Below are positions 13,831 to 19,088 of a stretch of 50,064 bases of DNA, piece after piece. Made by a program: the position numbers and the translations under genes. This stretch comes from Acidimicrobiales bacterium. Lineage in GTDB: Bacteria; Actinomycetota; Acidimicrobiia; Acidimicrobiales; SZUA-35. How positions within the stretch are numbered: position 1 is the stretch's first letter; the number at the start of each line of letters is the position of its first letter. The DNA lies in contig JAHDFH010000001.1 of the NCBI GenBank assembly GCA_020628305.1, positions 1 to 50,064 of the forward strand, given 5' to 3'. Below the pieces are notes generated by a model that was not told where the DNA came from, did not search any database, and saw only the letters and a list, made by a program, of their open reading frames with translations.

Positions 13831-14439
13831 ATGGATTCTGGTAAAATGATTCATATGGCTAAAACCTCCTATCACCACGGCAACCTTAAGGAAGATTTGG
13901 TGGCTTCCGCAGCCCAGGTTTTAGCAGAAGAAGGCCTCTCGGGCTTCTCTTTAAGGGAAGTGGCTAGACGGACAGGTGTTTCACACGCAGCGCCAGGCCA
14001 CCATTTCGGATCGGCCGAGGTACTGCTTAGCCATGTGGCGGCTCAAGGATTCAACGTGCTGGCAGATAACGTCGCCGAAGCCGCTGAGGGTGTAGAAGAT
14101 CCAGGCGAAAAGATGATCGCTGCCGGAAAGGCTTACATTAGAACAGCGCTCGATAACCCAGGCCATTTCTCGGTGATGATGGGTTCAGTTGATGGAATTG
14201 CTGAGACTCAAGAATGTGAAGAGGCTGGTCAGCGAGCGTTTGAGCAGATTGTAGAGCTTTCGGCCGAGCTGATTCAAGCTCGAGGGTCAGACATGAATCC
14301 ACTCGACCTTGCTTTTCTTTGCTGGTCGACCGTACATGGTTATGCCATGCTGCAAGACAAAGTCGAGAAAATTGCAGACATTAGAGAAGTCGTTCATAGT
14401 CTTGACGATTCTCTGCGGATCATCGTCGAAAGAATCTAA
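13831..14439 (+). CDS. TetR/AcrR-family transcriptional regulator
   Basis: N-terminal HTH YHHGNLKEDLVASAAQVLAEEGLSGFSLREVARRTGVSHAAPGHHFG; start could be 13831, 13846 or 13855. Confidence 0.92.
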   Translation: MDSGKMIHMAKTSYHHGNLKEDLVASAAQVLAEEGLSGFSLREVARRTGVSHAAPGHHFGSAEVLLSHVAAQGFNVLADNVAEAAEGVEDPGEKMIAAGKAYIRTALDNPGHFSVMMGSVDGIAETQECEEAGQRAFEQIVELSAELIQARGSDMNPLDLAFLCWSTVHGYAMLQDKVEKIADIREVVHSLDDSLRIIVERI

Positions 14440-15776
14440 TGCCGGACAACATTTGGTCGCCGATCGGCATGGGTGTGTGTGGTGTGTCGATCGACTGTTT
14501 TCTTTGTGAGGGCAGCTACGTGTTCTACTGCTACACCTGTGCGGGTGCCGCCCTCCACAACGTGGATGTGGGTACTTGATCCTGCCAAAAGTAGTTGCAG
14601 GGCCTTGGTTCCGTTCCGTAAGCTGTTGGGATTCTTGTCATCGGCCTTACCGCTTACCAGAACAGAATCAATTTCTGCCGAGCTGGACCGTTCAATAAAC
14701 TGCCCTACTGTCTCTAGATCTTCCTGGGTTACCAGGCCAAAAGGGCTTGGCTCTGTACCGTTTAATTGTGCTGCAGCTACTCTTACAGTTTTGCCAGAGC
14801 CAGCGGTTATAAGAACTAAGTCGGCACCACTGTTTTCAATGAAGTGGCGTGCCGCGTCAAACTCTGTCGCAGCTAGGCGAGGGTCTCTATCGAAGGTATA
14901 GTGCCCAACGGGGTATGATTCTCTTGCGGCAAGGTCTCCATCAGTGGTGCCAATTGCTATTTCGACGGAACGTCCACCCACATCCACAACTGCCACTCTT
15001 ACATTCGCTGTTTTGGCGCCTTCTAAGTGTTGTTTGTAACTGGTGATCGCTCCAGAAAATGAGTACTCAGCTTCTTCAATTGGGGAAAGTATTCGAAGTT
15101 TAAATACAGGGAAAGATTGATCAAATCTGCTTTTCCCCTCGGCGCCGTTCTCTAGTCGAAAGGGAGAGGTTCCAAAAGCGAAGACCTGCCGGGTACCGTG
15201 TTTTATCTCTGCTTTTAAAACCGTTCTTCGTATCCAATCCATCGAGAGGCGCATGCGTTGGAGATTCAGGCCTTTGTCAGCAAGCTGGGGTAGTGGTTTG
15301 CCAGTTCTTTTTCGATGGTCCTCAGCTTGACTGTACTTAACCACTGATGTGAAGCTTCCGTCAGTGTGTGGTTGAATGACCTCGGCTCGCGCCCCACTCG
15401 AGCCAATTTCGACAACTACGAAAGGGGCAAACTGTTTGGGCAGAGCAGGTGAAAAGAGTTTGGGTGCTACGAGGGCATCTGCTGCTTCTCTTGCTCGTCG
15501 GCGTTCGGTGGATTTGTCGTCTTGTCGGGTTTGTTCAATGCCGTCTAACTGCCGTTGGCGCTTTGTTCGAAGAAACCGGTCTACTTGTGGCTCGTTAGCT
15601 TCAGCAGTGCGGGCGATTGCATCGATCAACCGGAGTTTTTCATCACGTTGCTCTCGTATCTGTTGCAGTGGGTCAATTAGATCGCGTTTGGCTTTTCGGT
15701 GAGCAGCTTTGTATCGCGCATCAATTCCATCAGCTGTGAGGACAGTATCTAATAACCCGCCCGAGATTTCAGCCAT
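14436..15776 (-). CDS. Ppx/GppA-like ASKHA protein with N-terminal coiled-coil extension
   Basis: VVEIGSSGARAEVI, FAFGTSPFRLENG, ILSPIEEAEYSFSGA and VVDVGGRSVEIAIG correspond to phosphatase motifs; about 110-aa charged N-terminal extension. Confidence 0.7.
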   Translation of the reverse strand: MAEISGGLLDTVLTADGIDARYKAAHRKAKRDLIDPLQQIREQRDEKLRLIDAIARTAEANEPQVDRFLRTKRQRQLDGIEQTRQDDKSTERRRAREAADALVAPKLFSPALPKQFAPFVVVEIGSSGARAEVIQPHTDGSFTSVVKYSQAEDHRKRTGKPLPQLADKGLNLQRMRLSMDWIRRTVLKAEIKHGTRQVFAFGTSPFRLENGAEGKSRFDQSFPVFKLRILSPIEEAEYSFSGAITSYKQHLEGAKTANVRVAVVDVGGRSVEIAIGTTDGDLAARESYPVGHYTFDRDPRLAATEFDAARHFIENSGADLVLITAGSGKTVRVAAAQLNGTEPSPFGLVTQEDLETVGQFIERSSSAEIDSVLVSGKADDKNPNSLRNGTKALQLLLAGSSTHIHVVEGGTRTGVAVEHVAALTKKTVDRHTTHTHADRRPNVVRH

Positions 15777-15857
15777 TGTCTACCCCCAAGATGGCCCCAC
15801 CTGATTGTACAGGTCTAGTGCGAAGTTAAACCGAAGAGATTGTTACTCCTCAACTGC

Positions 15858-16288
15858 TTATCGGCCCAATGGACTCCACCGCCGAGGCCGGTTCATCCCC
15901 ACAGACGGCGGAATATCTATCTTGGCCGTCTCTTCGACGTTCAAACCCTTGAGTACTGCTTCATTACAGTCTTGAATGGCCTCTTTCTTTGCCTTGTCTC
16001 GCTCCGTCTCATTGTCGCTAAGCTGCTGAAGGAGCTGATCATCGGCGTTTTTTTCTGTTTCGCCTGTTGAAATGCACGCTGTAGGGCACTTCTTAAGTTG
16101 GCCTCTGGATCTACGGCTGAGTCAATCACGAATGTATCTGTATCTGAGGGTTGGAAACGTTTTGCATGGTCTTCGAACACAATTGCACGAGTAAGGCTGT
16201 CATAGTCTTGATCGATCTCTTGAAGGGCCTCACTCAGCCGTGCAAATGCTTCGGCTACTAGCTCTTGTTGAAGTTGGTCGTTTGACAT
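15858..16288 (-). CDS. Hypothetical coiled-coil-like protein interrupted by a frame change at an A7 tract
   Basis: Frame 0 (16288-15941) gives a low-plausibility tail after AKQKK; the -1 frame continues KNADDQLLQQLSDNETERDKAKKEAIQDCNEAVLKGLNVEETAKIDIPPSVGMNRPRRWSPLGR* to 15858. Confidence 0.6.
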
Positions 16289-16316
16289 AAACCCGCCTTT
16301 ATTGTTTGCATTCAGT

Positions 16317-16640
16317 TTACCGGTGTTGTGAAATTTGCCTATAAACCTCAGGAACCACAGCTTGCTGAGGAGGGGGTGGAGTAGACAGACCTTGCAGTTG
16401 TTGTGTCAGCTCTAGATCAACCTCAGCCAAAGCAGCGTTCTTCAAGGCTTCGATAGCTTGCAGTTGGTGTAGCCTCAGCCGGTCGTTGGCAGATTTTGCA
16501 CCCAAGTCTTCCAGAGCTGAGTTCAGGTTGCGATGTCTTTCCAGCTCTTTTTGAATTGCACGCTCTGCCTTAACGATGATCTCTGCCTTGTGAGCCTCTG
16601 CTTCGATCTTAAGTTCTGCGGCTGTGGATTGAGATTTCAC
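16317..16640 (-). CDS. Small coiled-coil hypothetical protein
   Basis: 107 aa, Ala/Glu/Leu-rich helical pattern; same strand and order as the two downstream genes. Confidence 0.65.
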   Translation of the reverse strand: MKSQSTAAELKIEAEAHKAEIIVKAERAIQKELERHRNLNSALEDLGAKSANDRLRLHQLQAIEALKNAALAEVDLELTQQLQGLSTPPPPQQAVVPEVYRQISQHR

Positions 16641-16708
16641 AGCGCCCGCCTTTCAATGAATCGCCAGTATAGCTGTATAACCAATGATGTCGGTATAGAG
16701 TTTCTGGT

Positions 16709-16846
16709 ATGAGCATTATCGCAGTTGTATGGCACTGGTGGTTAAGTTTAGGCCTCGCAGTCAGCTCAATTTTTCTTATTGGGGCAGTCATTTTTGGTTA
16801 CCTCTACCAAGTGCAGCGTCACAAATACCCACGTAAGAAGCGGTAG
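16709..16846 (+). CDS. 45-aa single-TM microprotein
   Basis: ATG..TAG encodes MSIIAVVWHWWLSLGLAVSSIFLIGAVIFGYLYQVQRHKYPRKKR; below the ORF-track cutoff; just upstream of the DUF2342-like gene. Confidence 0.5.
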   Translation: MSIIAVVWHWWLSLGLAVSSIFLIGAVIFGYLYQVQRHKYPRKKR

Positions 16847-16852
16847 CGGTAG

Positions 16853-18043
16853 ATGGCTGAGGCGAAATCAAAAGTTGATTGGCAGTTTGCGCGCAATGTT
16901 GCTGAGTTTGTCGTTAACGACACCCCACCACCTCACTATGATGCTCAACAGGTTGCCGCCGACTTTGCATCAATGACGCCCCAAGCCGAAGAGCTTGTTG
17001 CAGCCGAAACTGGGCTCGAAGTCGAGTCTCAAGCTAAAGCAAAGGTGATTGAACGAATCGACTGGGTGGATGCCAACTTAGCGAGCTTTGGTCGCTTAAT
17101 GAGGCCACTATTCGAGAAACTTGATGCTCACGCTTTAGACAAAGAAGCGGAAAAGCTAGCGAATAAATCCGAGCCAAAACAGTTCTCAGAGACCGAGTTT
17201 GGCAAAATGCTTGGCCCCTGGGCTGAAAAGATCGATCCGGCTGTTAAATCGGCAACAAACGTGGCAGCCTCACTAGGCGAAGATATTGCGAACAGTGTCG
17301 GCCCGAAGTTTGCCGGAGCTGAGCTTGGCGGTCTACTTGGTTTCATGGCCGGCCGAGTGTTGGGCCAGTATGACTTGCTCGTCGCAGAAGATGACTCACC
17401 AGAAGATCAAGACTGGGTGTACTACGTTGGACCAAACATTCACGCCCTGGAAAATCGTTTTGGTTTCCCACCTAAAGAGTTTCGTTTGTGGATAGCAATT
17501 CATGAATGTACTCACAGAGCTCAATTTATGGGTGTGCCTTGGCTTCGTCCGTACTTTCTCTCGATGGTCGATGACCTAATCAACTCTGTTGATCCAGATC
17601 CGAAACAGCTTCTTGAGTCACTTAAGGAAGCTAGACAGCAATCAAGCTCTGATGATGCAATCGACGGCGGATTAATGATGAAGCTCGCTTCACCAGAACA
17701 GCGCAAGGTCATGAACCGGCTTACCGGGCTAATGAGTCTGCTCGAAGGTCACGGTGACGTTGTTATGGACTCTGCTGGCAAAGGGCTCATTCCGTCTCAG
17801 CAGAGATTCTCAAACATAATGTCGCAGCGCAGAAAGAACGCTACCGGTATCAGCAGAGTGATTCAGAAATTGACAGGTATGGATGCAAAACTCGCCCAGT
17901 ATGAAGCTGGTGAAGCCTTTATAGCAGCAGTTGAAGCTAAGGGCGGACGAAAACTATTTGACATGGTTTGGACTTCGCCGGAGGCGTTGCCAACTTTGGA
18001 AGAGGTCAATAACCCTGAGCTTTGGATTAAGCGTGTCGGCTAG
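16853..18043 (+). CDS. DUF2342-type zinc-dependent metalloprotease
   Basis: HExxH motif IAIHECTHRAQFMGVPWLRPYF; actinobacterial-type neighbourhood with tilS nearby. Confidence 0.8.
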   Translation: MAEAKSKVDWQFARNVAEFVVNDTPPPHYDAQQVAADFASMTPQAEELVAAETGLEVESQAKAKVIERIDWVDANLASFGRLMRPLFEKLDAHALDKEAEKLANKSEPKQFSETEFGKMLGPWAEKIDPAVKSATNVAASLGEDIANSVGPKFAGAELGGLLGFMAGRVLGQYDLLVAEDDSPEDQDWVYYVGPNIHALENRFGFPPKEFRLWIAIHECTHRAQFMGVPWLRPYFLSMVDDLINSVDPDPKQLLESLKEARQQSSSDDAIDGGLMMKLASPEQRKVMNRLTGLMSLLEGHGDVVMDSAGKGLIPSQQRFSNIMSQRRKNATGISRVIQKLTGMDAKLAQYEAGEAFIAAVEAKGGRKLFDMVWTSPEALPTLEEVNNPELWIKRVG

Positions 18044-19088
18044 AAGAATCTGTGGGCTTGTAATTCTGCTAACCCTCGTAGCAGGTCTCTTCTTTTGGCT
18101 GGGATCGGAGTCAGACGAAGAGGCAACCGCCCTTGTCGACGATAACGACGAACTTGTTGGTTATGAGTTCCCAGCTGATTCTGAAGATGAATGCTTCGAG
18201 GGCGAGTACTTCGATGAGGAAAGCAGCGTGTGTGTCTTTGAGTGTGAAACCGAACAAGAGTGTGCTGAGCTAGAACAGGAGCTCGAGGACGAACTTGACG
18301 GCCTCTATGAGGACAATGATTTTTACCATGATGATCATGATCACCAAAGCAATGATCCGTCCGAGGATACCGAAGCTGTGTACGAGGTATCCAAGGGGGA
18401 AGTTCTCACCCTTGCTTCAGGCGAAGAGCGTCCGGAACATAAAGCTCTTTGGAGACTTGTTTCAGCAATCTCTCCTGATGAGCTCACCGACAACTACATA
18501 GATACCTTTGAAGTATCAAACAATAATGAAACAGATGCTGCCGGTTATGTGGTTGACGTAAACGAAGATGGTGTGTTTGCAATCGGGTTCAACTTGCCTG
18601 ATTCTGACCCAGCAGATGGAGCAGAGACCATGCTTTTAATCGTGCACGAGCTTGCCCATATTCTCACGTTGAACAACGATCAGATTCCACCAGAGTCTTC
18701 ATGTAACTATGATCAGCCTGAGCCATGTTTGGAAGCATCAGGTGACTCGGACGGGCTTTATGAGAATTTCGTGGAGCGGTTTTGGTCAAAAGAAGACATC
18801 GAAACCAGTGCAGACGCGGTGAATGCCTCTGAAGATGGCAGCCCAGTTGAATCAAGCCTCTATGTTGAGAATCCAGAATCCTATGTCTCCGAGTACGCTT
18901 CTTCTCAGCCTGGGGAGGATATTGCTGAATCCTTCGCTCACTATGTTGTGACCAATTCATACGGTGGGAATTCGATCGCGGATCAGAAGCAAGGTTTCTT
19001 TGATGATTTCGAAATAGCTGAAGACTATAAGCAGCAAATGCGTCAAGGTTTGAAGTCTCAGCTCGCCCTGAAACGCAGAGCCAGTTAG
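18033..19088 (+). CDS. Membrane-anchored putative zincin with acidic/His-rich segment
   Basis: Start placed at GTG 18033 before TM ICGLVILLTLVAGLFFWLG; HELAHILTLN motif; later ESFAHYV could supply another ligand. ORF opens at 17931 inside the upstream gene. Confidence 0.65.
   Translation: MSARRICGLVILLTLVAGLFFWLGSESDEEATALVDDNDELVGYEFPADSEDECFEGEYFDEESSVCVFECETEQECAELEQELEDELDGLYEDNDFYHDDHDHQSNDPSEDTEAVYEVSKGEVLTLASGEERPEHKALWRLVSAISPDELTDNYIDTFEVSNNNETDAAGYVVDVNEDGVFAIGFNLPDSDPADGAETMLLIVHELAHILTLNNDQIPPESSCNYDQPEPCLEASGDSDGLYENFVERFWSKEDIETSADAVNASEDGSPVESSLYVENPESYVSEYASSQPGEDIAESFAHYVVTNSYGGNSIADQKQGFFDDFEIAEDYKQQMRQGLKSQLALKRRAS

Follow-up and report, generated by a model that had tools for sequence, protein, structure and literature searches.

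A Ppx/GppA-type protein with atypical phosphate loops, encoded behind two small helical proteins in an Acidimicrobiales genome

The window analyzed here is a stretch of 50,064 nucleotides from an Acidimicrobiales bacterium, located on contig C65 of a 2.36-Mb draft genome (G000) that is 95% complete. On its minus strand, reading from position 16640 down to 14436, lie the genes for a 107-aa protein, then a second helical protein, then a 446-aa protein of the ASKHA type (Table 1). The first-pass annotation, made from the sequence alone, had listed three minus-strand ORFs in this order, and codon usage bears out that all three are coding. When scored by a codon model built from the other genes in the window, each of the three genes was positive in its own frame and mostly negative in the other frames, and base composition by codon position was native for all of them. 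With helical protein 2 read as 143 aa, the intergenic gaps are 28 nt and 81 nt. A promoter-like site precedes the gene of helical protein 1, in a region that was not richer in such sites than shuffled sequence.

Table 1. Features of the cluster, in positions of the window
Feature	Position	Strand	Details
Helical protein 1	16317..16640	-	107 aa, GTG start; codon signal 0.239
Helical protein 2	15858..16288	-	143 aa via -1 frame change at A7
Mechanical ORF of helical protein 2	15941-16288	-	115 aa
A7 run (T7 on + strand)	16048..16054	-	site of frame change in the helical protein 2 gene
Divergent Ppx/GppA-type ASKHA protein	14436..15776	-	446 aa; PF02541 36.9 bits; Foldseek 1t6c, E 6.8e-15
N-terminal helical hairpin arm of ASKHA protein	15474..15734	-	residues 15-101; helices 15-60 and 62-101 (model)
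Promoter-like site, upstream of helical protein 1	16666..16693	-	CCGACA-16-TATACT

The reading of the second gene turns on its A7 run. Past this run the annotated frame scored -0.286 bit/codon, compared to +0.233 for the -1 frame over the same bases; with the frame corrected, the sequence runs on as ...AKQKK-NADDQLLQQLSDNETERDKAKKEAIQDC... until the stop at 15858. Since the coding signal changes frame at A7, the full reading of helical protein 2 is 143 aa and not 115 aa, and the gene as assembled is broken. Poly-A runs are prone to assembly error, indel mutation and slippage alike, and an A7 cassette gave ~10% frameshifting in reported tests (PMC3711429). The frame change seen here may likewise be an assembly error, an indel mutation or a slippage site, which a single assembly without relatives does not separate. 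By analogy with the reported cassette, a programmed frameshift at A7 is possible.

The 446-aa protein matched PF02541 (Ppx-GppA) over residues 192-359 with a score above the Pfam gathering threshold of 27 bits, and it reached 32.9 bits with the NCBIfam exopolyphosphatase model TIGR03706, far under the cut-off of 307 bits. An AlphaFold2 model (mean pLDDT 65.6) consisted of a hairpin arm and a two-lobed actin-like domain with a poorly predicted, low-confidence C-terminal lobe. When this model was used as a query in Foldseek, ranks 1-37 were all Ppx/GppA proteins, with A. aeolicus 1t6c at the top; the input to AlphaFold2 was an alignment of Ppx proteins, and the structural matches are hence not independent of the sequence match. 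With that caveat, the ASKHA fold proposed in the first-pass annotation is seen in the structural prediction, and the profile and structural matches both agree with the assignment. The charged helical extension that had been described at the N-terminus of this Ppx/GppA-like enzyme is likewise supported by sequence and model.

The divergent motifs noted earlier, EIGSSGA and DVGGRSVE, are present in the first and second phosphate loops as EIGSSGAR and DVGGRSVE, in place of the canonical DxGTNS and DIGGGSTE, i.e., with D to E at position 123, TNS to SSG, and GGG to GGR. Canonical loops are typical of the PF02541 family and not strictly required by it, and undoubted members show loop variants. Similar alterations occur in some of the DUF501-linked Ppx1 proteins from this bacterial family (DLGSTSSR/DIGGRSTE and ELGSGSTK/DIGAASTE), so that divergent motifs by themselves do not set the 446-aa protein apart. 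The residues that serve in catalysis (Arg and Glu) and in metal binding (Asp and Glu) in PF02541 are all present: R207, E235, D265 and E272 fall into invariant columns in an alignment with 15 Ppx proteins, and by their positions would be the equivalents of Arg84, Glu112, Asp135 and Glu142 in M. tuberculosis PPX1, which have been assigned to hydrolysis and metal binding (PMC3411833). Since these four residues are kept, hydrolytic activity of the 446-aa protein is plausible as judged from the alignment; since phosphate-loop positions differ, it is also possible that activity has been lost or altered. Taken to its end, the second argument would make the protein a catalytically dead ASKHA sensor, which binds nucleotide or polyphosphate and signals through the arm to the two helical proteins. 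The changed loops and the similar changes in the Ppx1 proteins of the family would both be consistent with such a sensor, but the joint retention of all four functional residues is not expected in a dead protein, and we regard this alternative as unlikely. The results support the 446-aa protein being a member of the Ppx/GppA family with atypical loops.

Compared to the known Ppx/GppA proteins, such as 1t6c and M. tuberculosis PPX1, the 446-aa protein has in common the ASKHA domain and the positions of the catalytic Arg/Glu and metal Asp/Glu, at 18-26% identity to the members aligned. It differs from them in its altered phosphate loops, in the helical N-terminal arm of ~110 aa and in an insertion at approximately residues 150-170. 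Long Ppx2 proteins carry a C-terminal extension, whereas the 446-aa protein does not. Within the bacterial family, the Ppx1 proteins linked to DUF501, some of which share loops of the GGRS type, resemble it in having a single catalytic domain; in contrast to these, no DUF501 gene adjoins the 446-aa gene and the TIGR03706 score is far too low. Profile scores for the two groups were about equal (Ppx1, 38.6 bits; Ppx2, 39.1 bits), and a tree built from 62 Ppx domains placed the protein outside both the DUF501-linked Ppx1 and the Ppx2 groups, on a branch of ~5 substitutions per column whose length makes the placement unsure. A recent duplication of Ppx1 or Ppx2 is supported neither by the profile scores nor by the tree, the latter subject to the same unsure placement of a long branch.

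Two more Ppx genes are found in the genome: a Ppx2 on C111, truncated where the contig ends, and, on C31, a fragment linked to DUF501. The DUF501-linked Ppx1 proteins of this genome (L003:1465-1956 (-), G000:C31) and of the same-genus genome G001 (L135:1423-1932 (+), G001:C39) are only 164-170 aa long, without the N-terminal lobe found in other family members, and this short remnant is conserved between the two genomes (36% identity over 140 aa).

No close homologue of the enzyme was found in 38 other genomes of the bacterial family, including two of the same genus; matches there, as in 395 genomes of the class and 397 of the phylum, were to generic Ppx proteins only. With the single protein as the query, there was no match in plasmids, phages and viral contigs, nor in the collection of genome contigs. 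When the genome contigs were scanned with an alignment-derived pattern, the hits were generic Ppx proteins whose neighborhoods contained no homologues of the helical proteins. The matches of the helical proteins in 45 relatives were at chance level only. As far as searched, the cluster occurs in this genome only. To its right lies Zincin_2, which was found in all relatives, with tilS close by in those examined. The gene content before Zincin_2 differs among all three genus members, which indicates that the locus of the cluster is variable. This variability, together with the lack of homologues of any cluster gene in the relatives, the middle gene's change of frame at A7 and the long branch of the enzyme, would be consistent with decaying or orphan genes, i.e., a Ppx-like gene that was acquired horizontally or evolves fast, in an operon that is losing its function and whose middle gene is already a pseudogene. 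We consider such decay possible and somewhat doubtful, given that the enzyme gene is intact, that its codon usage is native and that all four functional residues have been kept.

For helical protein 1, single-sequence AlphaFold2 (mean pLDDT 78) predicted a hairpin, H7-46/H49-85, followed by a Pro-rich tail, and in the model of the ASKHA protein two long helices form the hairpin of the arm (Table 1); in the models, the two hairpins appear similar in length. Hydrophobic periodicity was not above shuffles for helical protein 1 or the arm and was weak for helical protein 2. Because of this weak or absent periodicity, the label 'coiled-coil' that the first-pass annotation had given to the small proteins is too specific, and predicted hairpins are the better description for helical protein 1 and the arm. 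The helical proteins had no family match in Pfam, NCBIfam and further family searches. The gene order, two genes for small helical proteins and then one for an enzyme that begins with a helical hairpin, would also suit a secreted effector with two hairpin partners in the style of type VII secretion, as in the LXG or WXG100 architecture. This is very improbable, as WxG is absent from all three proteins, YxxxD/E is absent from the helical parts, and no WXG100 or LXG family was matched at E up to 1.

Other candidates were rejected or set aside. A defence system was looked for with PADLOC, which gave no match for the cluster, and in PHROGs, where matches were at chance level only. Paralogy among the helical parts was rejected in the absence of significant similarity (p = 0.06 for the first versus the second; other pairs not significant). 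The predicted hairpin of helical protein 1 can be overlaid on the insertion hairpin in the beta-prime subunit of mycobacterial RNA polymerase (TM 0.70, rmsd 1.2), a likeness that was set aside at E = 1.0 and 15% identity, since any long helical hairpin might score so.

The explanation that we prefer, tentatively and at somewhat less than even chance, is a small operon, present in this genome only as searched, whose last gene encodes a deeply diverged, probably active phosphoanhydride hydrolase of the Ppx/GppA type that would dock on its partners and act on a nucleotide polyphosphate. The three genes would be co-transcribed, the N-terminal helical hairpin would dock on one or both of the small helical proteins, and these would position, oligomerise or restrain the enzyme. 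The operon reading is favored by genes that are consecutive, on the same strand and of native codon usage; against it, the assembly has a frameshift in the gene of helical protein 2, and none of the relatives searched carries any of the three genes, so that an operon or a complex draws no support from conservation. Given that two small helical proteins precede an enzyme with a hairpin arm, a complex is the simplest guess; set against this, similarity among the helical parts fell short of significance and their coiled-coil periodicity is weak. The tethering through helical partners that had been suggested earlier is something we infer from the gene order and the similar hairpins in the predicted models.

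The substrate of this putative hydrolase would be a nucleotide polyphosphate (pppGpp or an NTP) and not long-chain polyphosphate. The genome, of which ~5% is missing, yielded RelA/SpoT and no PPK1; this slightly favors a nucleotide over long polyphosphate, in a search that covered PPK1, whose absence does not exclude PPK2. Polyphosphate or (p)ppGpp, as first suggested, is possible. For M. tuberculosis Rv1026, an undoubted family member, neither exopolyphosphatase nor pppGpp hydrolase activity was seen (PMC3411833).

Should the arm and both partners prove to regulate the enzyme, they would represent a new means of controlling alarmone, nucleotide or polyphosphate breakdown. A more far-reaching version, in which the protein represents a third Ppx/GppA lineage controlled through its arm by a dedicated pair of helical hairpins, and slippage at A7 determines how the second partner is expressed, strikes us as a long shot. 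At present the cluster is an unusual variant of the Ppx/GppA type, a single case without comparative support, which mainly documents drift of the Ppx/GppA fold with the catalytic residues kept.

Several further observations concern the neighborhood. Directly before Zincin_2, many members of the bacterial family seem to carry genes for an ECF sigma factor and for a protein resembling an anti-sigma factor (L051-L066, read by eye), a pair that is not at this place in the three genus members. Between Zincin_2 and tilS, 17931-19088 (+) encodes a zinc metallopeptidase-like protein with HELAH and a Peptidase_Mx match below the cut-off, and no similar protein was present there in the relatives examined. 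Just upstream of Zincin_2, 16709-16846 (+) encodes a 45-aa probable single-pass membrane protein (MSIIAVVWHWWLSLGLAV...), and both other genomes of the genus have short ORFs resembling it in this position.
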